In this document: positions 4,452 to 39,142 of the stretch, piece after piece
Numbering within the stretch: the first letter of the stretch is position 1
Layout of the letters: every line of letters begins with the position of its first letter
Assembly (NCBI RefSeq): GCF_001429165.1
Contig: NZ_LMIR01000001.1
Span: 6,342-70,341 of the forward strand
Direction: 5' to 3'
DNA from: Agromyces sp. Root81
GTDB taxonomy: Bacteria; Actinomycetota; Actinomycetes; Actinomycetales; Microbacteriaceae
DNA: 64,000 nucleotides
Program-made: the position numbers and the translations under genes
The notes under the pieces: model-generated
What the model was told of the DNA's origin: nothing
The model's database searches: none
What the model saw: the letters and a program-made list of their open reading frames with translations, nothing else

Positions 4452-6152
4452 GTGATTGAGGAACTCGGCATCCGCGATCTCGGCGTCATCGCCGAGGCGA
4501 CGCTGCCGCTCGGGGCCGGCTTCACGGCCGTGACCGGTGAGACGGGAGCGGGCAAGACCATGGTCGTGACCGCACTCGGCCTGCTGCTCGGCGCGCGCGC
4601 CGACGCGGGCGCGGTGCGCGCCGGCGCCAAGCAGGCGTGGGTCGAGGGGCGCTGGCTCGTGCCCGACGACGGTGCGATCGCCGAACGCGTCGCCGAGACG
4701 GGCGGCGAGGTCGAATCCGGCGAGCTGCTGCTCGGCCGATCGGTCTCGGCCGAGGGGCGCAGCCGGGCCGTCGTCGGCGGTCGCAGCGCGCCCGTCGGCG
4801 TGCTCTCCGAACTCGGCGACGAGCTCGTCGTCGTGCACGGACAGGCCGACCAGCAGCGCCTCCGCTCGGCGGTGGCGCAGCGCGAAGCACTCGACCGCTT
4901 CGCCGGACCGAAACTGCAAGCGCTGCTCGACGAATACCGCACGGCGTTCAACGCCTGGCGCACGGATGCCGCCGAGCTCGAGCGGCTCCGAGGTGACCAC
5001 GAGGTGCGGATGCGCGAGGCCGAAGAGCTCCGCGCCGCACTCGACGAGGTCGAGGCCGCCGATCCGCAGCCCGGCGAAGACGTCGAGCTGCAGGAGCGCG
5101 CCGACCGGCTCTCGAACCTCGAAGAGCTGCGCGTCGCCGCCGCGCAGGCGCGTGCGCTGATCTCCGCCGAAGACGTCGTCGACGACGTGCCCGACGCGGT
5201 CGCGCTCGTCGATGGGGCCCGCCGTCACCTCGAGCGGGTCGCCGAACACGATGCCGAGCTGCAGCCGATCGGCGAGGTGCTGACGAACGCGGGCTTCCTG
5301 CTCGCCGACGCCGCCGCCGAGCTGTCGGGCTACCTCGCCGGCCTCGACGCCGACGGCGCCCGTGAACTCGAGATCGTGCAGGAGCGACGAGCCCTCCTCG
5401 GCGGGCTCGTGCGCCGCCATGGCGGCGGTCTCGAGGAGGTGCTCGAGTTCCGTCGCACGGGTGGACTCCGGCTCGTCGAGCTCGACGGCGACGACGAGCG
5501 CATCGAGGGTCTCGAGGCATCCGTCGCCGCGCTCGAAGCCGAGGTCGACCGTCTCGCCGGCTCGCTCACCGAACTGCGCACCGATGCGGCTGGCCGGCTC
5601 GCGGCGGCGGTGACCGCCGAGCTCTCGGCGCTCGCGATGCCCGATGCCCAGCTCGCCGTCGTGATCGAACCGACCGCCGACGCGACGGCGCACGGCCGCG
5701 ACAACGTCTCGATCCTGCTGCGACCGCACCCCGGCGCGGAACCCCGCCCGGTGTCGCGCGGAGCCTCGGGCGGTGAGCTGTCCCGCGTCATGCTCGCGAT
5801 CGAGGTCGTCATCGCCGGCAGCGACCCCGTGCCCACGTTCGTCTTCGACGAGGTCGACGCGGGCGTCGGCGGCGCCGCCGCGATCGAGATCGGGCGACGG
5901 CTGGCGCGACTCGCCGAACGCTCGCAGGTCATCGTCGTGACCCATCTCGCTCAGGTCGCCGCGTTCGCGACGAACCACCTGAGCGTGGTCAAGGGCACCG
6001 ACGGGCAGGTCACCTCGTCGAGCGTGCGCCAGCTCGCCGGCGCCGAACGCGAGGCCGAGATGGCGCGACTGCTGTCGGGTCTGACCGATTCGCAGAGCGG
6101 ACTCGCGCACGCGAGGGAGCTGTTGGAGATCGCCGCGGACCGCGCGGCGTGA
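4452..6152 (+). CDS. recN: DNA repair protein RecN
   Basis: A 566-residue SMC-like ATPase that acts in double-strand break repair. The Walker A motif GETGAGKT lies near residue 34. The middle is two long Glu/Ala/Leu/Arg-rich coiled-coil arms. The C-terminal head carries the ABC signature SGGELSRV and Walker B TFVFDEVDAGVGG. Length and order fit the family. The GTG start at 4452 gives the usual N-terminus (MIEELGIRDLGVI). It lies 25 bases after nadK, so the two are likely in one transcript. Confidence 0.95.
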   Translation: MIEELGIRDLGVIAEATLPLGAGFTAVTGETGAGKTMVVTALGLLLGARADAGAVRAGAKQAWVEGRWLVPDDGAIAERVAETGGEVESGELLLGRSVSAEGRSRAVVGGRSAPVGVLSELGDELVVVHGQADQQRLRSAVAQREALDRFAGPKLQALLDEYRTAFNAWRTDAAELERLRGDHEVRMREAEELRAALDEVEAADPQPGEDVELQERADRLSNLEELRVAAAQARALISAEDVVDDVPDAVALVDGARRHLERVAEHDAELQPIGEVLTNAGFLLADAAAELSGYLAGLDADGARELEIVQERRALLGGLVRRHGGGLEEVLEFRRTGGLRLVELDGDDERIEGLEASVAALEAEVDRLAGSLTELRTDAAGRLAAAVTAELSALAMPDAQLAVVIEPTADATAHGRDNVSILLRPHPGAEPRPVSRGASGGELSRVMLAIEVVIAGSDPVPTFVFDEVDAGVGGAAAIEIGRRLARLAERSQVIVVTHLAQVAAFATNHLSVVKGTDGQVTSSSVRQLAGAEREAEMARLLSGLTDSQSGLAHARELLEIAADRAA

Positions 6153-8646: not shown

Positions 8647-9545
8647 CCCGAACCCCGGTCGACGACTACCTGCGGCATCTCGCCGTGGAGCGGGGGCTCG
8701 CGCAGAACACCATCTCGTCGTATCGACGCGACCTCGCGATCTACGCCGACTGGCTCGACGCTCGCGAGATCGCCGGGCCGTCGGCGGCGACCGAGCAGGA
8801 CCTCGGCGACTTCGTGCGCTTCCTCGGCGCCGATCGCGTGCCGCCGCTCGCGACGTCGTCCATCGCACGGGTGCTGTCGGCCGTTCGCGGCCTGCACCGC
8901 TTCCTCGCCGAGGAGGGACTCGTGACGGCCGACGTCTCACGAGACCTGCGGCCGCCGAAACTCCCGATGCGGCTGCCGAAGGCGATCCCGGTCGACGACG
9001 TCGAGGCGCTCATCGCGGCCGCAGTCGGCGATGAGCCCACCGACCTGCGCGACACGGCGCTGCTCGAGCTGCTGTACGCGACCGGTGCCCGAGTCTCGGA
9101 GGCCGTTTCGCTGAACGTCGACGACCTCGTCGACCAGGAGGTCGTGCGACTCTTCGGCAAGGGCGGCAAGCAGCGCATCGTGCCGCTCGGCAGCTACGCC
9201 CGGCGGGCCGTCGACGCCTACCTCGTGCGTGCCAGGCCGCTGCTCTCCGCACGCGGCTCGGCGACGCCGGCGCTCTTCCTCGGCGTACGCGGCAAGCGGA
9301 TGTCACGGCAGGCCGCCTGGGAGGCGATCCGCGATGCCGCCGAGACCGCCGGGCTCGCGACATCCGTCTCGCCGCACACCCTTCGGCACTCGTTCGCGAC
9401 CCACCTGCTCGAGGGCGGTGCCGACGTGCGCGTCGTGCAGGAGCTGCTCGGCCACTCCTCCGTCGCCACCACGCAGATCTACACGCTCGTCACGGCTGAC
9501 ACACTCCGGGAGATGTACACAGCGGCCCACCCCCGTGCTCGCTAG
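8643..9545 (+). CDS. xerD: Site-specific tyrosine recombinase XerD
   Basis: A 300-residue tyrosine recombinase that resolves chromosome dimers, normally at dif. The N-terminal SAM-like core-binding domain covers about residues 5-90. The catalytic set is complete: Arg150 (TGARVSE), His245 and Arg248 (HTLRH), His271 (LLGHSS) and the nucleophile Tyr280 (QIYTLV). The ATG at 8643 overlaps the NUDIX stop. Position before parA and scpAB supports XerD rather than a phage integrase. The longer in-frame reading upstream is an artefact of the high GC content. Confidence 0.94.
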
Positions 9546-9548
9546 AAT
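9543..9548 (+). promoter_or_regulatory. Possible -10 element for parA-scpA-scpB
   Basis: TAGAAT at 9543-9548 is a good -10 match and overlaps the xerD stop codon. It would give parA a leader of about 35 bases containing the Shine-Dalgarno-like AGGAGAGAAG at 9570-9579. The -35 is not clear. Confidence 0.4.
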
Positions 9549-9587
9549 CGACCAAGCACCCGCCCGGCCCAGGAGAGAAGACGACAC

Positions 9588-10472
9588 GTGACGCACCAGA
9601 CGAACCACTCAGCGGACGGAATCGCTACTCCGCCAGAGCTCGGTCCCACTGGTCGCCCGTCGCGCGAGTTCCCCGAGCCCGTCACGCTCACGTCGCACGG
9701 CCCCGCACGCATCATCGCCCTCTGCAACCAGAAGGGCGGCGTCGGCAAGACGACCACCACGATCAACCTCGGCGCCACGCTCGCCGAGTACGGCCGCCGC
9801 GTGCTCGCGATCGACTTCGACCCGCAGGGCGCGCTCTCGGCCGGGCTCGGCGTGCCGACGCACGACGTGCCGACCATCTACGACCTGCTGCTCTCGCGCA
9901 ACCTCGACCCGGCCGATGTCATCCAGAAGACGAGCGTCGAGGGCCTCGACGTGATCCCCGCGAACATCGACCTCTCCGCCGCCGAGGTGCACCTCGTCAC
10001 GGAGGTCGCCCGCGAGCAGATCCTCGCGAGCGTGCTGCGCCGCGTGTCGGCCGACTACGACGTCATCCTCATCGACTGCCAGCCCTCGCTCGGCCTGCTC
10101 ACCGTCAATGCCCTCACCGCCAGCCACGGCGTCGTGATCCCGCTCGAGTGCGAGTACTTCGCCCTGCGCGGCGTTGCGCTGCTCATCGAGACGATCGACA
10201 AGGTGCGCGACCGCCTGAACCCGGCGATCAGGCTCGACGGCATCCTGGCGACGATGTACGACGCCCGCACCCTGCACTCCCGTGAGGTGCTCGAGCGCGT
10301 CGTCGACGCGTTCGGCGACGAGGTGCTCGAGACGGTCATCTCCCGTACCGTGAAGTTCCCCGACGCGAGCGTCGCCGGCACCCCGATCACCGAGTTCGCA
10401 CCCGAGCACCAGGCGTCGAAGGCGTACCGCCAGCTCGCCAGGGAGCTGGTCTTCCGTGGCGCGGTCGCCTGA
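9588..10472 (+). CDS. ParA family chromosome-partition ATPase
   Basis: A 294-residue ParA/Soj-type ATPase with the deviant Walker [17 protein letters not shown] near residue 46 and the switch region [14 protein letters not shown]. ParA ATPases bind DNA and position chromosomes or protein complexes. This copy precedes scpA and scpB, the position of the orphan ParA-like gene in actinobacteria, and is not next to parB. A role in condensin loading or segregation is therefore inferred, not shown. Its 3' end overlaps scpA by 17 bases. Confidence 0.92.
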
Positions 10473-29713: not shown

Positions 29714-30352
29714 GTGGCGGTGCTGTTCTCCTTCCTCATCAAGACGTTCGTCATCCGGTCGTTCTACATCCCGTCAGGGTCGATGTCCCACACCCTCGAG
29801 ATCGACGACCGCATCATCGTGAACCAGCTCAAGTCCGAGATCAGCCCCATCGAACGCGGCGACGTCGTCGTGTTCAAGGACCCGGGGGAGTGGCTCCCGT
29901 ATCGCGGGGAGGCCCCGGCGCAGCCGCCACTGGCTGCCGCATTCGACTGGCTCGCCGCCGCCGTGGGCCTGTCCGCACCGGACTCCGACGAGCACCTCGT
30001 CAAGCGCGTCATCGGTCTGCCCGGCGACCGCGTGGTCTGCTGCAACGGGCTCGGTCAGATGAGCGTCAACGGGGTGCCACTTCGGGAGCCGTATGCTTTT
30101 CACTCGGGTGGGGAGGCCGAAGCCTCGAACGTTGACTTCGATGTCGTCGTGCCTAACGGCTCGCTGTGGGTTATGGGCGACAACCGCGAGAACTCCCAAG
30201 ACTCGCGATTCCACGCCGACACCCCCACGCGTGGCTTCGTCCCCATCGACGACGTCGTCGGCACGGCATTCCTCGTGAGCCGGCCGCTGGACCGGTGGGC
30301 ATGGCTCGGCAACTACCCCGACACGTTCAAGGGCGTCGATCCGGTGCGGTAG
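29714..30352 (+). CDS. lepB: Signal peptidase I
   Basis: Membrane-bound serine protease that removes signal peptides. Boxes are present: catalytic Ser in FYIPSGSM, catalytic Lys in VKRVIGLPGD, and the GDNRENSQDSR box. The GTG at 29714 starts inside the transmembrane helix. In-frame sequence of good signal-peptidase character (RDILIIFLV) extends back to about 29597, but has no ATG, GTG or TTG. An ATG at 29593 is one base out of frame. The true start may be non-standard, or the 5' end may be frameshifted. It converges with the export operon, which suggests but does not prove that it processes the secreted peptide. Confidence 0.85.
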   Translation: MAVLFSFLIKTFVIRSFYIPSGSMSHTLEIDDRIIVNQLKSEISPIERGDVVVFKDPGEWLPYRGEAPAQPPLAAAFDWLAAAVGLSAPDSDEHLVKRVIGLPGDRVVCCNGLGQMSVNGVPLREPYAFHSGGEAEASNVDFDVVVPNGSLWVMGDNRENSQDSRFHADTPTRGFVPIDDVVGTAFLVSRPLDRWAWLGNYPDTFKGVDPVR

Positions 30353-30359
30353 GCGCGCC

Positions 30360-31403
30360 TTACCGGTCCTTCGACAGCGAGCTCGGGTCTCCGCGTGACA
30401 AGAGGAGGTTCCCGGTCGCCACGAACAGCCACGCGAACGCGCCCGCGACAACCCACGGAACCTGTGCCGCCGGTGCGGCGAAGTAGCCCGAGACCAAAAG
30501 CAGTGCGAGGGACCCTGCCGCCGCGAAGCAGCCGGCGAGGAGAGCCTGCTCGAAGAAGAGGAGCAGGAACATCGAGCGGACAGTCGTTCCCGAGAATCGG
30601 TAGCTGGCGATGTCGCTGGAGCGGAACCGGTTCATCCCGAGCCCGACGAGCCCGCAGATCATTCCCAGTCCGACCGGGAGATAGCGGTCCGGACGGTTCA
30701 CGAACGCCTCGACCGGGTCGACGTTCTCGGCGAACTCGGTCGTACCGGCGAGGGTCCCGCCAGTCGCACTGAGGGAACTCGACAGCCGTGCGGTCGCCGC
30801 CTCGGTGTCGGCGAACCGGTCCAGTGTGACGACGCACGACTGAACGCGCGTCTCGTTCGGCGTGAGCGGTACCGCCACGGCCGACCCGAGGTTCATGCCC
30901 GCTGGTGTCTTCTGCCCGAGGAGGGCGGTCTGAGCCGAACCGTCGGGCATCAGCAGGAGGCGTTGGCCGCCGGTGAAGCCGAGTTCCGACCCGACGTTCA
31001 CATCAGCCTCGGATAGCGCGGGCAGGAGCGTCGCGCTCACCGCGTACACCTGCACCGCCGGGCCGAGTTGGACGAACGTCGACGGGCCGACAAGGCTCAT
31101 CCCGCCCGCGGTGACTACATCCGGTTGCGAGGCGAGTGCTTCACAGCTGGCCCGGTCCACTCGAGTGGGGATACTCGCGTCCGCGGACTGGAACACAACG
31201 GTGTTCCTGCCTTGCAGTTCACTGGCCGCGAGACCTTGGGTGAATGTCGTCCACTGGAACGCGGCGAACACGGCTGCCCCAGCCGCGGCGAGGACAGCGA
31301 AGCAGAGCAACAGAATCAAGCGCGAGTCGCGCGAGAACACGTTCCGGTTCGCTTCCCGCCAGAGGTAGGCGCCCCGCCACCCGTCACGCGGCGCCGGGGA
31401 CAT
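30360..31403 (-). CDS. FtsX/MacB-like ABC permease of the peptide-export operon
   Basis: A 347-residue protein with one transmembrane helix near residues 29-50, a large extracytoplasmic domain (about 51-236, with two Cys) and three further helices (about 240-258, 278-305, 315-335). This is the topology of FtsX/MacB-type permeases, which work as mechanotransducers or exporters rather than sugar-type channels. Its start overlaps the ATPase gene by 20 bases. It is the last gene of the operon and ends seven bases from the signal peptidase stop. Confidence 0.82.
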   Translation of the reverse strand: MSPAPRDGWRGAYLWREANRNVFSRDSRLILLLCFAVLAAAGAAVFAAFQWTTFTQGLAASELQGRNTVVFQSADASIPTRVDRASCEALASQPDVVTAGGMSLVGPSTFVQLGPAVQVYAVSATLLPALSEADVNVGSELGFTGGQRLLLMPDGSAQTALLGQKTPAGMNLGSAVAVPLTPNETRVQSCVVTLDRFADTEAATARLSSSLSATGGTLAGTTEFAENVDPVEAFVNRPDRYLPVGLGMICGLVGLGMNRFRSSDIASYRFSGTTVRSMFLLLFFEQALLAGCFAAAGSLALLLVSGYFAAPAAQVPWVVAGAFAWLFVATGNLLLSRGDPSSLSKDR

Positions 31404-32022
31404 GCTGTCTCCTCACATGAACAACGGCGTGGGCCGTCTCGACGAGGCGCGGGTCATGGGTGGCGACGACGATGGTCGCGGTCTCCCTGAGCGTGTGCAG
31501 AAGCTCAGCGACCTGGTCAGTATTCGCCGCGTCCAAACTCGACGTGGGCTCATCCGCGAAGATCAGCGGTTTCGCCGCGGCGAGGGCGCGCGCGAACCCG
31601 ACGCGCTGCAGTTCGCCACCCGACAGGTGCTTCGCGAGCGTGTGCATCCGGTCGCTGAGACCCACCTTTTCGAGCTGAGTCTCCGCGCTCCGGGAAGCAG
31701 CAAAGAGTCCCGCGCCAGCGGCCAGCGCGCTCAGCATGACGTTGTCGAGGGCGGTGCGCGCGCCGAGTGCGTTCGCTCCCTGCGAGACCCAGGCGATTCG
31801 TTGCGGGGTCGGCGGTTCGACGCTGCCGTCGGCGTGCCGATACGTGATCTGACCGGAGTCCAGTTGCTGGAACCCGGCCATCGCTGCGAGGAGGGTGGAC
31901 TTCCCGCTGCCCGACGGGCCGACCAGAGCGGTGACCATGCCCGGTTCGATGGTGCAGCTGAAGTTGTCGAGGACGACGACGTCCCCGAACGACTTCCTGG
32001 CGCCGCGGACGTCTACGAACAT
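31384..32022 (-). CDS. ABC transporter ATPase, LolD/MacB type
   Basis: A 212-residue ATPase with all motifs: Walker A GPSGSGKST near residue 36, Q-loop VSQG, signature LSGGELQRV, Walker B LIFADEPTSSLD and the H-loop ATHD. Length and the signature place it with LolD/MacB/FtsE-type ATPases, the partners of FtsX-like permeases. Start overlaps the adaptor gene by 10 bases and its end overlaps the permease by 20. Confidence 0.9.
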   Translation of the reverse strand: MFVDVRGARKSFGDVVVLDNFSCTIEPGMVTALVGPSGSGKSTLLAAMAGFQQLDSGQITYRHADGSVEPPTPQRIAWVSQGANALGARTALDNVMLSALAAGAGLFAASRSAETQLEKVGLSDRMHTLAKHLSGGELQRVGFARALAAAKPLIFADEPTSSLDAANTDQVAELLHTLRETATIVVATHDPRLVETAHAVVHVRRQHVPGAA

Positions 32023-33188
32023 CCGGCCTGGGCTTTGGACGGGGCGGTGGTCGGGTCGCGGAGGATGACACTGCCCGCGAGGTTGGCGTCGGTGAAGACC
32101 TGCCCGAGCTGTCCGACTGCCGGAGCGACGTTCTCGAGCTTCACGGCCGTGTGCCGGCCCGGGCCCGACGAGGAGCCGGAGCCGGCGTCTGAGACTGTAA
32201 TGACGCAGCTGCCGCCATCGGCGTTCGTGAGGACACTAGTGCCCGGCACCACGGCGACGACGCTGGGTGCCTCCTTCCGGAGCATGAGACCCGTGTAGCT
32301 CGCGCTGGATGCCGCTTCTGCATCCTCACCTTTCGGTGCTTCGGGAGCCGCGATCTCACCGGCTGCGACCGCCGCCTGCACGAAAACGTACAGCGCGTCG
32401 ACGGATGCCGCGTCGAGACCTGAGGCCCACGGTAGGGGAACCTCGCCCCCGTCGCTCGTCGAGACGATGACCGGCTCGTCTCCATACGCGGTGAGGTCGC
32501 CGTTCTCCGCGGCGGGAGTGAGTTCGGCTGCCGATGGTGTCGCGGTACCCGAGAGGATCGGATCATCGGCGGTCAGGGTGTCGCCGACCTTGGCTGCGAC
32601 CGACCCGACTGAAGCGACGGTTTGCGGCACGTAGGCGACCCGAGCTGTTGCGAACACCTCGGTGCATTCGAGTCCGGCCGCTTCCTGGAACTCACATACC
32701 GCGTCCGCGGTGGCGCCGCCGAAGTCGCCGTCCACGTTGTCGGTCGAGTCAGCGAGGAACCCGCCGGCCACGAGGAATTGTTGCATCGAAGCGACATCGG
32801 CCCCCTCCATGCCGCGCGCGAGGTCCCGGTACAGGGGCGGGGTCTGCGGCATTGCGAACACCGGTGCACCGTCGACATCGATGAGCTTCGTGCCGCTGCT
32901 GATCTGACCGCCTACATCCACGTGCACAGCGGTGACCCGGCCGGACGCGTTCGTCTTCACCACACCGGCGGGGTTCAGGGTGAACTCGACACCGATGGAC
33001 TGCCGGAAGTCGGCCTCCCGGGACCCGACCTCAACCGTGGCCGGCAACGGGGAGGAAGCCGCGGCTTCCTCCCCGTGCTGAGCCAGAGGGACGAGCGCCA
33101 CCAGCGCGACGATGGGGACGGCGAAGCACAGCACGACCGGCGCGATGAAACGCAGGTCACGCCAGCCGAACCTCGCCTTTCCCGACAT
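32013..33188 (-). CDS. Membrane-anchored adaptor with peptidoglycan-binding-like segment
   Basis: A 391-residue protein. One N-terminal transmembrane helix (about residues 14-34) is followed by an extracytoplasmic part. It contains lipoyl/HlyD-like beta stretches (VVKTNASGRVTAVHVDVGGQISSGT near 75-100, cited as ASGRVTAVHVDVGGQISSGT). It also contains a segment like a peptidoglycan-binding type 1 repeat (GMEGADVASMQQFLVAGGFL, then DGDFGGATADAVCEFQEAAGL, about 125-170). This pairing of MacA-like adaptor and cell-wall binding occurs with MacB-type transporters in Gram-positives. Its ATG directly follows the TAG of the lipoprotein gene. Confidence 0.75.
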   Translation of the reverse strand: MSGKARFGWRDLRFIAPVVLCFAVPIVALVALVPLAQHGEEAAASSPLPATVEVGSREADFRQSIGVEFTLNPAGVVKTNASGRVTAVHVDVGGQISSGTKLIDVDGAPVFAMPQTPPLYRDLARGMEGADVASMQQFLVAGGFLADSTDNVDGDFGGATADAVCEFQEAAGLECTEVFATARVAYVPQTVASVGSVAAKVGDTLTADDPILSGTATPSAAELTPAAENGDLTAYGDEPVIVSTSDGGEVPLPWASGLDAASVDALYVFVQAAVAAGEIAAPEAPKGEDAEAASSASYTGLMLRKEAPSVVAVVPGTSVLTNADGGSCVITVSDAGSGSSSGPGRHTAVKLENVAPAVGQLGQVFTDANLAGSVILRDPTTAPSKAQAGCS

Positions 33189-33692
33189 CTACCCGCCCTG
33201 CTTTGCACACTGCTCGAAGGTGAGCCCGTTCTCCTCGAGCTGGGTTTGCAGCTCTGCCATGCTGGACTTCGGTGTGACCCCGGCCGCGGTCAGGCAGTCG
33301 GCGATGATCTTCGCGGTCTTGGACGTGTCCTCGTGAGCGATCTGCCACTTGATGTCGACCTGCTCGTACTCGGCCCCGTAGCACCGCGCGTCGTCCCCCG
33401 ATGCGACGGCAGCTTCGGGGATCCCGAACTGGTGGATGTCGTTTTCGATCCCGTTGTCGAGGATTTCGAACCCTGCCGCTGAGAGGCAGTCCACGAAACG
33501 GCGATACCCAGCCTCGTACTCGTCCTGCGTCACCTCGCCGTCGTCCAGGGCCGCCTTCTGCTCGGCGGAGATGGTGACTTCTTCCGTTGCGCCCTGCTGC
33601 TCAGGCGACGCCCCTGACGGGCTGCCCGGTGAAACCGAGCAACCCGTCAGAAGAGCGAGCAGCGCGAGTATGCCTACAAGCTTGAGTCGCAT
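33189..33692 (-). CDS. Lipoprotein of the peptide-export operon
   Basis: A 167-residue protein with a lipoprotein signal, LKLVGILALLALLTGC, Cys20. The mature part is Ser/Gly-rich for 20 residues, then acidic and helical, and has four further cysteines (FVDCLSAAG, ARCYGAE, IADCLTAAG, FEQCAKQ) in two repeats of a similar xxDCLxAAG pattern. The ATG lies one base after the stop of the secreted peptide gene. Lipoproteins next to bacteriocin genes often give immunity; that role is inferred from position only. Confidence 0.75.
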   Translation of the reverse strand: MRLKLVGILALLALLTGCSVSPGSPSGASPEQQGATEEVTISAEQKAALDDGEVTQDEYEAGYRRFVDCLSAAGFEILDNGIENDIHQFGIPEAAVASGDDARCYGAEYEQVDIKWQIAHEDTSKTAKIIADCLTAAGVTPKSSMAELQTQLEENGLTFEQCAKQGG

Positions 33693-33693
33693 A

Positions 33694-34062
33694 TCAGGTC
33701 GAGAACGGGAAGTTGCCGTCGTACCCGGAGTACGGGGCCGACGTCTTGTGGTTGCCACCGAGGATGGTGTTGCCCCGCTGGCTGGCCGAATCGACCGTGC
33801 CGTACGACCACGCCGCGTAGTAGATCGGCGAGCCGCTGTACAGCTGGTAGAACGCTCGCACGCCGACGTCGCCGCATTCGGTTGCGTGGGGCTTGGTCGT
33901 GTACGCCCCCGAGCTGTAGCTGGCCCCAGCGACATACATGTCGCTCTTGCAGAGCTTCTTGTCCTGACCGGCCATCGCCGGGCCCGCTGTCGCCACCGAG
34001 GCGGCCAGCAGGCCAGCTGCCAGCACCGCGGTGGCAGCCGCGATACGCTTGAATCTCGTCAT
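33694..34062 (-). CDS. Secreted two-cysteine peptide, bacteriocin-like candidate
   Basis: A 122-residue precursor with a clear Sec signal peptide: MTRFKRI, a hydrophobic stretch AAATAVLAAGLLAASVATAG and a probable cleavage after PAMA near residue 31. The mature product of about 90 residues is rich in Tyr, Ser, Gly and Ala and has two Cys (KLCKSD and TECGD), so one disulfide is possible. It resembles secreted bacteriocins in size and context but lacks a clear lactococcin 972 pattern. The ATG at 34062 has GGGGA five bases upstream; an ORF start at 34116 is less likely. First gene of the operon. Confidence 0.7.
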   Translation of the reverse strand: MTRFKRIAAATAVLAAGLLAASVATAGPAMAGQDKKLCKSDMYVAGASYSSGAYTTKPHATECGDVGVRAFYQLYSGSPIYYAAWSYGTVDSASQRGNTILGGNHKTSAPYSGYDGNFPFST

Positions 34063-35343: not shown

Positions 35344-36170
35344 TCAGCGCGACTTGAAATAGCGAAACAAGCGACTCTCGGAGATCGAAAGCGTTGCCCC
35401 TGCGGTCGCGACAAGCGCCGCTGCGATCCCTGCTGCGATAACACCAGACCCTGAGAAATACGCGGGCCATGGTGAGCCTGGATTGTCCAGCATTGCCACA
35501 AGCAGCCCCAACCCAAGGCTCAATGCGGCGGCCGGCAGGGCGAAAATCGCTGTCTCGGTGGTCATCTGCACTGAGAGCGAGATTTTGTGAACGCCGGCAT
35601 GGAGAGTGCTGGCGAGTTGAAGTCTTCGCGTCCAGATCAGGGCGAATCCGATGAGTGCACCAGATACGACGCTCGCGACCAGGAAGAACCAGCTGGGGAT
35701 CCGCTCCAGCCGTTGCGACCCGTCGAAAGCGGTCCCTTCGCTCGCGTTGAGCTGCTGGATCTTCGGGGTCTCGTCCGGTGAAATCGTGCCGTTGCTTCGG
35801 ATCGGAAAGGTGAGGAGCTCGTCGAGTGCCGGATTCTCCGGCCAGATCTCGATCCAACATGCGTCGAAGAATCCCGTCGCTGGAACTTCGCTCACCGCGT
35901 TGTAGGCGAGAACCGGTAGCCGCCCATCTTCTGGATACTCGTACTGACCGGCCACGCTGACTGAGCCACCTGAGGCTGTATCAAGTTTCACCTTCGGACG
36001 AACATCGATACCGAGGTCGGCCGCGAGATCGGATGAGAGCCAGATACCTGACTCGGAGGTCGCCGGCTGCTTCTTCATTCCAAGGATCGCGGCGAGTCCG
36101 GGAGTGCCTTCGAATGTGGCGAATGTCGTTGACGGAAGTGCGGCGAACTGGAGTGGGGAACCAGCGCGAA
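35344..36170 (-). pseudogene. 5'-truncated FtsX-like ABC permease
   Basis: The intact part is an extracytoplasmic domain, then three transmembrane helices near the end (FFLVASVVSGALIGFALIW, TETAIFALPAAALSLGLGLL, VIAAGIAAALVATAGATL), as in the neighbouring permease gene. The first transmembrane helix and start are missing. The reading frame keeps coding character upstream of the ATG at 36078 (AGSPLQFAALPSTTFATF) to about 36168, where it meets the transposase fragment. An insertion or deletion at this point removed the start. A relic second permease of the same kind of system is the best reading. Confidence 0.65.
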
Positions 36171-36347
36171 CCGCACACCGGCATCGATCTCGTAGCGGCG
36201 CTGCCAGAGCCGCCGCGTTTCCGGGCTCATCCCGAGCAGCCCGGCCACGTGGCGGACCGCGCTCATCATGTTCGGGTGCTCCGGCCGCGCCTCCGCGAGC
36301 ATCCGCAACGCCCGCTCACGCATCTCCGGCGAGTACTTCCTGTTCAT
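36171..36347 (-). mobile_element. IS3-type OrfA transposase fragment
   Basis: From the ATG at 36347 the frame gives MNRKYSPEMRERALRML and LLGMSPETRRLWQRRYEIDAG, an N-terminal IS3 family OrfA helix-turn-helix region. Homology stops at about residue 59 (GVR). The rest of the ORF to 36075 is out-of-frame sequence of the permease relic. OrfB and the right end are missing. I could not identify terminal inverted repeats. Confidence 0.75.
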
Positions 36348-36507
36348 CGTGTTCCATCCTTGCTTGAAGAACGGAACGAAAGTCAGGCCGATTCAGTTGG
36401 CGGTGCGGCTGGTCGGATGCCGGCGGATCCACAGGTGCCGAGGACGGTGTCGCGGTAGAACACCCGTGTTGGGTTCTGTTCGATCCTCTTGCGGCATCCG
36501 GGCTGGT

Positions 36508-36523
36508 GGGGAAGCGTTTACCC
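36508..36523. promoter_or_regulatory. LacI-type operator before the polysaccharide lyase
   Basis: GGGGAAGCGTTTACCC, a near-palindrome of LacI-family type centred on CG. It differs by one base from the site at 50205-50220 before the oxidoreductase operon. It sits 51 bases before the lyase start. Confidence 0.65.
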
Positions 36524-36574
36524 GATCCGGCTGGAAGAAAGACGACCAGCCCTGAGCTCAGAGTAGAGGTCATC

Positions 36575-39142
36575 ATGCACGCTTCTCGCAGGTACCTGCG
36601 TCTTCCCACCGCGGTGATCATCGCCGCTAGCCTCGCCGCCGGCAGCCTGATCGCCGCCGGACCCATGGGGCCGGCGAACGCGGTCGGCACCGCGGCGACG
36701 ACTGGCGAGGCATCCGCCGAAACCGCCCAGATCTTCGCCGAGATGCGGGAACGGTGGCGAACCTTCGTCACCGGTGGTGAGGTCGACGTCGCCGATCCCG
36801 ACATCGCCGCCCGGATCACGTCGATCACGAAGGCTGCAACCACGCGGATGAACTCGCTGAACCGCGACCCCGCTCGCACCTACCTCTGGAGCGACCAGCA
36901 GAACTGGTCGAAGAGCGCGACCACGAGGACCAACTTCCTGCGCGTGTTCGACATGGCGCTCGCCTACGGCACCCAGGGCTCGACCCTCTACGGCAACGCC
37001 GCACTCGCCGCCGACATCACGGGTGCCCTCGAGTGGTTGTACGCGAACAAGTACAACGAGAGCATGACGCCGTACGACAACTGGTGGGAATGGGAGATCG
37101 GAAACCCGAGAACCCTGGCTGACGTGCTGGCGATCATGTACGACGTCGTTCCGCAGGACCTGGTGCAGGGGTACGTCCGCACGATCAACCGCTTCAACCC
37201 CGATCCCACCTACCAGACGTGGAACCCGTCGGCCCCGCCCGGCGCCGCCCACACCGACGTGGTGATGACCGGCGCGAACCTGCTCGACAAGGTGTTCAGC
37301 ACCGCGGCATCCGGCATGCTCGGAAACGACCCGGCCCGAATCGAGCTGGCCCGCCAGGCGATGCAGCCCGTCTACGCCACCGTCACCAAGGGTGACGGGT
37401 TCTACGCCGACGGGTCGTTCGTTCAGCACGGCTTCGTCGCCTACATCGGCGGCTACGGTTCCGAGCTGATGAACGCGGTGACCAAGCTGGCGTTCATGGT
37501 GCAGGGAACGCCGTGGGAGTTCCCGATCGAAGAACTTCGCAAGACCTACACCTGGTTCGACGACAGCATCGCGCCGCTCATCTCGCGAGGCGCGATGACG
37601 GACGCGGTCGGCGGACGCAAGATCTCCCGTGCGCAGGAATCCGACCACAAGACCGGTCGCAACATGATCCTCGCCGCTCGACGGCTCGCCGACATCGCCG
37701 ACCCCGAGGCGGCGGCGCGCATCAATTCCGTGCTCCGGGGCTGGATGCTGCAGGACACGTCGTTCCCGGGCGGGTACACCGCGGGTCTCGGCCTGTACGA
37801 CCTGCCTCGGGCCAAGGCGTTGCTGGCTGACGACTCCATCACGCCGAGCCGGCTCGAGACCACCCGCGTCTACGGCAGTATGGGCCGTGCGGTGCAGCAG
37901 ACCCCGGAGTACGGCTTCGGCCTGTCGATGTTCTCGGATCGGATCTCGTCGTTCGAGTACGGCAACGGCGAGAACGCGAAGGGCTGGCTGACCGGTGCCG
38001 GCATGACGTATCTCTACACCGACGACCTCACCCAGTTCAGCAACAACTACTGGGCCACCGTGGACTACCGTCGACTGCCCGGCATCACGACCGACCAGTC
38101 CGATTTCGGCAAACCGATCGACTGGTCGTTCTACGGCAACGCGGCGGGCGTGAACTGGACCGGCGGTTCGCAGGTGCTGGATCGGTACGCGGCCGCCGGT
38201 ATGGAGTTCGACATGTCGGGCTTCTTCTCACGGGAGAAAGTGCAGACCGCGTCCGAAACGACTGGTCGCGTGAGCCCGAGTACGCTCACCGGACGCAAGT
38301 CGTGGTTCCTGCTGGGCGACCGCATCGTCGCGGTGGGGTCGGGCATCACCGACACGGTCGGGAAGCCCGTCGAGACCATGGTCGAGAACCGCAAGCTGTC
38401 CCCGGCCGGCGACAACGTTCTCACCGTCGACGGTGCCGTGGTTCCCGCCGAGATCAGCGCGACCCCGGTCGACCTGACCCAGGTGCGATGGGCGCACCTG
38501 GCCGGAAAGGACGCCTCGTCGCAAGGCATCGGGTACTACTTCCCGACGACGACCGATCTCAGCCTGCTCCGAGAGCAGCGCCAGGGGGCATGGAGCGATG
38601 TCAACGCGGGCGGACCCACCGCGCCGGTGACCGACAACTACCTCAGCCTCGCGGTCGAGCACGGTGTCGACCCCACCGACGCGAGCTACGCCTATGTGCT
38701 GATGCCCGGCGCCACCGCCGAGGAAGTCGAGGCCGAGGCCGCCGACCCTGCCGTGCGCATCCTCCGCACGACCTCCGGCGTCGACGCCGCCTCGTACACG
38801 CCGCCGGTGTCGGACTCGGAGCGACCCGTGAGCAAGGTCATCGCCGCGAACTTCTGGGAGGCCACGGGGGGATCGGTGCTCGACGGCGAGGTGCCGCTCC
38901 TGACGAGCTCGGCCGCGGCGTCGGTCACCGTCGTCCGGGAAGGCCAGGCCACCACCATCGGCGTCGCCGACCCCACCGAGGCCAACGAGGGCAAGATCGT
39001 CATCGAACTTCGTCACCCGGCGCGCACGGTGACGACCAGCGACCCCGCGATCACCGTTCTGAAGCTCGGGAACACCATCAAGCTCGAGGTCGACGTGGAG
39101 AACGCGAACGGCCGCACCCTCAGTGTGACCCTGGGAATGTAG
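36575..39142 (+). CDS. Secreted polysaccharide lyase family 8 (hyaluronate/xanthan/chondroitin lyase type)
   Basis: Cleaves uronate-containing polysaccharide by beta-elimination outside the cell. The 855-residue precursor has a signal peptide (to about residue 34, ANA). The alpha/alpha toroid carries the PL8 motifs DNWWEWEIGNPR (with the catalytic Asn) near residue 168, QHGFVAYIGGYGSEL (catalytic His and Tyr) near 285, and RAQESDHKTGRN (Arg). Beta-sandwich domains follow. The ATG at 36575 has AGAGG five bases before it. The true substrate (hyaluronan, chondroitin or xanthan) cannot be decided here. Confidence 0.9.
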   Translation: MHASRRYLRLPTAVIIAASLAAGSLIAAGPMGPANAVGTAATTGEASAETAQIFAEMRERWRTFVTGGEVDVADPDIAARITSITKAATTRMNSLNRDPARTYLWSDQQNWSKSATTRTNFLRVFDMALAYGTQGSTLYGNAALAADITGALEWLYANKYNESMTPYDNWWEWEIGNPRTLADVLAIMYDVVPQDLVQGYVRTINRFNPDPTYQTWNPSAPPGAAHTDVVMTGANLLDKVFSTAASGMLGNDPARIELARQAMQPVYATVTKGDGFYADGSFVQHGFVAYIGGYGSELMNAVTKLAFMVQGTPWEFPIEELRKTYTWFDDSIAPLISRGAMTDAVGGRKISRAQESDHKTGRNMILAARRLADIADPEAAARINSVLRGWMLQDTSFPGGYTAGLGLYDLPRAKALLADDSITPSRLETTRVYGSMGRAVQQTPEYGFGLSMFSDRISSFEYGNGENAKGWLTGAGMTYLYTDDLTQFSNNYWATVDYRRLPGITTDQSDFGKPIDWSFYGNAAGVNWTGGSQVLDRYAAAGMEFDMSGFFSREKVQTASETTGRVSPSTLTGRKSWFLLGDRIVAVGSGITDTVGKPVETMVENRKLSPAGDNVLTVDGAVVPAEISATPVDLTQVRWAHLAGKDASSQGIGYYFPTTTDLSLLREQRQGAWSDVNAGGPTAPVTDNYLSLAVEHGVDPTDASYAYVLMPGATAEEVEAEAADPAVRILRTTSGVDAASYTPPVSDSERPVSKVIAANFWEATGGSVLDGEVPLLTSSAAASVTVVREGQATTIGVADPTEANEGKIVIELRHPARTVTTSDPAITVLKLGNTIKLEVDVENANGRTLSVTLGM

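Follow-up and report, generated by a model that had tools for sequence, protein, structure and literature searches.

A five-gene operon of Agromyces sp. encoding a secreted two-cysteine peptide and a four-cysteine lipoprotein, a candidate bacteriocin system with its own protection

Organization of the operon

A stretch of 64,000 nucleotides from Agromyces sp. Root81 (contig NZ_LMIR01000001.1, positions 6,342 to 70,341), called here the window, carries five consecutive genes for a small secreted peptide, a lipoprotein and an ATP-binding cassette (ABC) transporter module, which were studied as a candidate bacteriocin system. The five open reading frames (ORFs) are on the minus strand and extend from position 34062 to 30360. 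The peptide gene (34062-33694, 122 amino acids, GGGGA upstream of the ATG) is followed by the genes of the lipoprotein (33692-33189, 167 amino acids, lipobox LTGC), an adaptor (33188-32013, 391 amino acids), an ABC ATPase (32022-31384, 212 amino acids) and an FtsX/MacB-like permease (31403-30360, 347 amino acids). The original prediction, made from the window sequence, had described the genes as abutting or overlapping, and all ORFs as well as the exact junction lengths could be reproduced: in 5' to 3' direction the junctions are 1 base, 0 bases, a 10-base overlap and a 20-base overlap.

The same gene order was found in Agromyces sp. H66 and in Cryobacterium breve. In all three the 10-base overlap between adaptor and ATPase genes and the 20-base overlap between ATPase and permease genes are identical, and the first two gaps are 1 and 8 bases in H66 and 5 and 0 bases in C. 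breve. Protein identities to the window (H66/C. breve) are 77/59% for the peptide, 68/53% for the lipoprotein, 66/53% for the adaptor, 78/71% for the ATPase and 70/60% for the permease. When the window was compared with H66 by the Nei-Gojobori method, the rates of nonsynonymous (dN) and synonymous (dS) substitution were 0.17 and 0.54 (peptide), 0.20 and 0.78 (lipoprotein), 0.23 and 1.13 (adaptor), 0.16 and 0.98 (ATPase) and 0.21 and 1.03 (permease). Because dN is lower than dS in each case, the five genes are truly coding. The five-gene operon is real.

The adaptor had been claimed to bind the cell wall, and residues 129-174 indeed match PG_binding_1 (E 1.6e-8); the protein is membrane-anchored, and its HlyD/MacA-like designation derives from weak matches (RND_mfp, E 0.02) and from gene order. 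The ATPase matches ABC_tran (E 3.5e-29), and its best NCBIfam model is TIGR03608 (L_ocin_972_ABC, the lactococcin-972 exporter), for which the score of 135 bits does not reach the cut-off of 254.85. In the permease one plus three membrane helices were recognized by eye, the FtsX match is weak (E 0.19), and the C-terminus DPSSLSKDR is invariant in 3 sequences. These features may indicate a tripartite module, possibly of the MacAB type (type VII ABC). Like MacAB-type systems it would comprise an adaptor, a separate ATPase and an FtsX-like permease, but in this Gram-positive host no outer membrane partner is expected, and the adaptor has a peptidoglycan-binding domain. A role in anti-phage defence was considered and dismissed, PADLOC matching only the ATPase, which was taken as a generic fold.

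The peptide and its distribution

As judged by eye, the peptide has a Sec signal with a basic start, a hydrophobic core and an AMA/G site (...GPAMA/GQDKK). The mature part appears polar by eye and contains two cysteines (C38 and C63), presumed to form one disulfide. It had been said to fit no known family, and this held for the window peptide and its relatives alike. No Pfam family reached the cut-off with the window peptide, and the sole NCBIfam match at E ≤ 1 had an E value of 0.95; DUF7327 (E 0.0023) and T4_Spackle (E 0.021) were rejected, as both fall short of the cut-off and cover chiefly the signal peptide. Thirteen peptides from 12 loci were aligned; they gave scattered sub-threshold matches in Pfam and pointed to no catalogued family in NCBIfam (E ≤ 0.1), the best match being that of one member to a His-rich model (E 0.0011). 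In the alignment the first cysteine is invariant, the second falls within a few columns in each peptide (by eye), and three peptides (from genomes G365, G424 and G093; G and L numbers designate genomes and loci) have a third. Among solved structures no meaningful sequence match was found (best E 0.067), and a tblastn search of PLSDB with peptide and lipoprotein detected no plasmid match.

Relatives of the peptide are patchily distributed. Counting the own genome each time, a single-sequence search detected the peptide in 4 of 60 relatives, and a profile search in 4 of the 60 genomes of the genus and in 7 of 398 from the family. The 12 loci are the window, H66, C. breve, A. italicus, A. mediolanus, a second locus of the own genome (C2:1485169), G302, G240 (two peptides, one of them behind the permease), G365, G424, G093 and G293, the last with the weakest match (E 3.7e-5). 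The A. italicus ORF (L022, 7607-7963) has no plausible signal peptide. A different frame contains one, and the gene may be frameshifted or its sequence in error.

In the 12-19 kb read around each locus, a lipoprotein gene directly follows the peptide gene in 11 of 12 loci, and adaptor, ATPase and permease genes follow in five (window, H66, C. breve, G302 and G240); six loci have a peptide-lipoprotein pair with no adaptor and permease nearby. The own genome contains a paralogous second pair, at C2:1485169, and an orphan lipoprotein. The original prediction had named peptide homologues found mostly without the transporter as evidence against itself; formally this is what was seen, 7 of 12 loci having none nearby, yet the lipoprotein is the constant neighbour. 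The peptide is thus tied to the lipoprotein and only optionally to the transporter.

It had also been proposed that the transporter is the exporter. According to this explanation, the ABC module exports the peptide or releases it from the wall, the peptide being cargo and the lipoprotein a transport chaperone. The gene order and coupling in five loci would agree with such a role, as would the finding that the permease profile (E ≤ 1e-10) matched in 3 of 299 family genomes, all three of them peptide carriers. However, the peptide carries a Sec signal (read by eye), six loci have pairs with no adaptor and permease nearby, and a search for the window-type permease at E ≤ 0.001 gave no match in five genomes that carry the peptide (G003, G028, G093, G365 and G293); in G424 the match to the permease profile was marginal and partial. 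Generic ABC modules may exist in the genomes that gave no match. Given the Sec signal and the pairs in genomes that yielded no such permease, export of the peptide is probably not the task of the ABC module. Secretion does not seem to depend on it, and we consider this explanation unlikely.

A slot shared with lactococcin-972 genes

Pfam family PF09683 (Lactococcin_972) was detected in 20 of 179 Microbacteriaceae genomes, at 26 places. For the neighbourhood survey these were supplemented with one locus of G293, whereas locus L131 (see below) was left out; one of the 27 loci, L143, has an internal stop. In 18 of the 27 the PF09683 gene is followed directly, in the same orientation and at a distance of 9 to 212 bases, by a four-cysteine lipoprotein gene; within the 1.5 kb flanks at least 15 of the 27 have a match to the adaptor profile as well. 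The lipoprotein profile has 46 matches in 22 genomes (80.2 Mb, from rounded sizes), from which 0.05 would be expected beside 27 genes; this density is a lower bound, as a copy in G189 was missed, and a tenfold error would not matter. Two or more cysteines are present in 15 of the 18 lactococcin-972 peptides with a lipoprotein and in 3 of the 9 without (Fisher p 0.026, post hoc; the 9 include L143).

PF09683 itself did not match the window peptide at E ≤ 1 or any of the 13 aligned peptides, and it had 0 matches in the own genome. A circular permutation of lactococcin 972 was rejected (0.2% with a tandem-doubled profile), and an 81% hhalign match to lactococcin 972 covers only 18 signal-peptide columns. 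Since 18 of 27 PF09683 genes precede such a lipoprotein, the window peptide occupies a position used by a known bacteriocin family, to which it has no match itself. The layout of antimicrobial peptide systems, which the original prediction had recognized in the operon, is therefore supported as far as the slot is concerned, but not in its assignment of the transporter as exporter.

Lactococcin 972 is characterized by lipid II binding and inhibition of the septum. In its loci, as in the window, a small secreted peptide gene is followed by an ABC module. The Lactococcus locus consists of lcn972, orf2 and orf3, and the excerpted text of the paper mentions no lipoprotein or peptidoglycan-binding adaptor (PMC4055356), whereas the window operon has both. 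A 2026 Frigoribacterium paper, in the part available, names a cluster of the lactococcin 972 family with no functional work (PMC12823222). Among the open-licence papers listed on lactococcin 972, bacteriocins and Agromyces/Microbacteriaceae, none describes this cassette, as judged from titles and abstract beginnings.

The four-cysteine lipoprotein and its partner genes

In an alignment of 17 lipoproteins, the window included, four cysteines besides that of the lipobox are invariant (C69, C104, C133 and C162). Only the G497 sequence lacks the lipobox cysteine; its domain is preceded by a membrane helix. The predicted structure is mainly helical with a floppy N-terminus (mean pLDDT 76); no Pfam or NCBIfam family matched, and among solved structures no meaningful sequence match was found (best E 0.54).

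A class-wide profile search detected the lipoprotein in 15 of 394 genomes, and nine places from this list were examined. Small secreted two-cysteine peptides of other sequence adjoin the lipoprotein in G546, G508, G037 and at both G686 places, the second of which has a further peptide with four cysteines. The peptide profile of the window family weakly matches those of G546 (E 5e-5), G508 (E 8e-4) and G686 (E 1.3e-3). At the G497 place a sigma factor gene lies beside the lipoprotein-domain gene, and no peptide was recognized beside the lipoprotein in G710, G554 and at the C1 place of the own genome. This C1 place (L063, C1:414516-415016) holds the orphan paralogue, which is located downstream of genes that we take to be cytochrome-oxidase-like. 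Clusters of four-cysteine lipoproteins were seen at L161, L165, L166 and L167, with four close together in G240 (11 matches in the genome); at L161 and L166 another family of two-cysteine secreted peptides precedes the lipoprotein cluster.

By a loose criterion (1e-6), the adaptor profile matched in 354 of 394 class genomes. From about 150 listed places 60 adaptor loci were taken, mostly from the top of the list and the rest chosen by hand, thus not at random. In 54 of the 60 loci the nearest fitting upstream ORF encodes a lipoprotein whose lipobox cysteine is followed by exactly four more, and in one locus by six; in the remaining five none was found. Control searches at shifted positions gave 0 of 58, 59, 60 and 60, and on the opposite strand 0 of 60. 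In a profile comparison the lipoproteins of the adaptor loci and those linked to peptides matched at 97.9% (E 6e-13) with the signal peptide and at 90.1% (E 1.6e-6, 84 columns) with the mature part alone. From these lipoprotein and adaptor counts, lipoprotein, adaptor, ATPase and permease look like a common actinobacterial unit.

Four-cysteine domains linked to sigma factors

In G497 and G142 a gene for a sigma factor of the extracytoplasmic function (ECF) type (Pfam Sigma70_r2/r4) is followed by one for a membrane-anchored protein ending in a four-cysteine domain, which the lipoprotein profiles match with E values of 6.8e-36 and 1.1e-38. Divergent to the H66 operon lie a gene with sigma-70 regions 2/4 and one for a one-helix four-cysteine protein. 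These sigma-linked proteins suggest an extracellular ligand for the four-cysteine domain, which would fit immunity and signalling alike. A lactococcal anti-sigma factor is reportedly tied to Lcn972 resistance, according to the title of one study cited in PMC4055356.

Sensing is therefore a serious rival to immunity. The peptide could be a pheromone or kin-recognition ligand and the four-cysteine domain its receptor, with lipoprotein and ABC module sensing or recycling the peptide and related domains signalling to ECF sigma factors. Against this, no sigma factor was recognized by eye among the ORFs beside the window operon, the one-helix protein of H66 has no family match, and the ORF lists show no small secreted peptide beside the sigma genes of G142 and G497. 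Moreover, pure signalling does not predict that the slot is shared with bacteriocin genes, and we regard this explanation as rather unlikely.

A possible self-protecting bacteriocin system

The lipoprotein pairing and the slot shared with lactococcin-972 genes support a bacteriocin-type function. Judged from sequence comparisons, the peptide probably represents a novel type of bacteriocin that is produced along with its own protection, and we lean, by a modest degree, towards an operon for a Sec-exported bacteriocin with self-protection resembling that of NisI/NisFEG. In the envisaged mechanism the peptide would be exported via Sec and have antibacterial activity, the lipoprotein on the outer face of the producer membrane would capture it, and the wall-anchored complex of adaptor, ATPase and MacB-type permease would clear membrane or wall of the peptide.

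In the nisin and subtilin systems the lipoprotein and the ABC transporter (NisI + NisFEG, SpaI + SpaFEG) jointly protect the producer, according to the portion of the source available (PMC8538875). Both NisI/NisFEG and the window place a lipoprotein beside ABC genes in a peptide operon. They differ in that a scan of the five operon proteins, to which this search was confined, showed no lantibiotic modification enzyme, in that the window lipoprotein has a helical model, four cysteines and no family match, and in the wall-binding domain of the adaptor. TMcin shares with the window a two-cysteine peptide and ABC genes and reportedly also has homologues in Actinomycetota; in the excerpted description, however, it possesses a transmembrane helix at the N-terminus and is accompanied by a metalloprotease gene (PMC12328743), whereas the mature window peptide appears polar by eye and the five-gene operon has no protease.

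Several observations weigh against a bacteriocin with its own protection. Structure prediction, proposed earlier as a check, was run for the peptide (5 sequences), but with a mean pLDDT of 36 the model is uninterpretable and allows no statement on the fold. In lactococcin-972 loci the function of the partner genes is experimentally unverified, as stated in the part of the source available (PMC11796350); no lipoprotein was found within the 1.5 kb flanks at 9 of the 27 PF09683 loci, and membership of the window peptide in this family was rejected (hhalign of mature regions, 0.3%). The G293 peptide has no lipoprotein, and in the five peptide-bearing genomes where the window-type permease was not found clearance would need another transporter. 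Finally, a convincing small secreted peptide was seen upstream in only 3 of the 60 adaptor loci (L110, L114 and L131), counted by eye because automatic filtering for small secreted ORFs returned numerous spurious ones of high GC content. The rarity of recognized peptides implies some general role of the lipoprotein, and its predicted immunity function is not specific to such peptides in general.

The same counts would suit a further explanation, in which the four genes serve envelope stress or efflux in general, and the peptide is an ordinary surface protein with no antagonistic role: the module is common class-wide, as is the adaptor profile by its loose criterion, and mostly occurs with no recognized peptide. 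Yet several small secreted peptides of differing sequence occupy the slot, including Pfam-recognized lactococcin-972 members such as that of L131 (35.9 bits, cut-off 22), which is followed by lipoprotein, adaptor, ATPase and permease. We consider this explanation distinctly unlikely.

A broader form of the bacteriocin interpretation is offered tentatively, as a possibility short of probable. The four-cysteine lipoprotein, adaptor, ATPase and permease might constitute a standard plug-in platform for self-protection in actinobacteria, into which unrelated peptides (lactococcin-972 types, the window family and further two-cysteine families) are slotted; the four-cysteine domain would act as receptor for these peptides and, where it follows an ECF sigma factor, would serve again in sensing them, and the window peptide would found a new bacteriocin family. 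If so, the conserved lipoprotein would be a handle for finding unrecognized actinobacterial peptide bacteriocins, which themselves share little sequence, and the role of the partner genes in lactococcin-972-type loci would become testable.

Genes flanking the operon

A signal peptidase I gene (29714-30352, plus strand; Peptidase_S26, E 2.9e-42) converges on the operon at its 3' end; by eye, no counterpart was seen beside the H66 operon. On the other side, 35344-36078 (minus strand) encodes an FtsX-like permease that lacks its N-terminal part and is unlike the operon permease. Its product is 33% identical (E 8e-31) to the G686 permease of a different peptide-lipoprotein-ABC module, and it appears to be left over from a second module immediately upstream of the operon. 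The truncated gene is abutted by a transposase-like fragment (36075-36347, minus strand; HTH_Tnp_1, E 0.0006, below cut-off), and a gene for a polysaccharide lyase of family 8 (36506-39142, plus strand) lies beside the remnant. In G302 (L040) the five-gene cassette is flanked by near-identical copies, one full and one partial (ORFs 4809-5300 and 9278-10306), of a gene that is presumably ispH-like, which suggests that the cassette was inserted by recombination.

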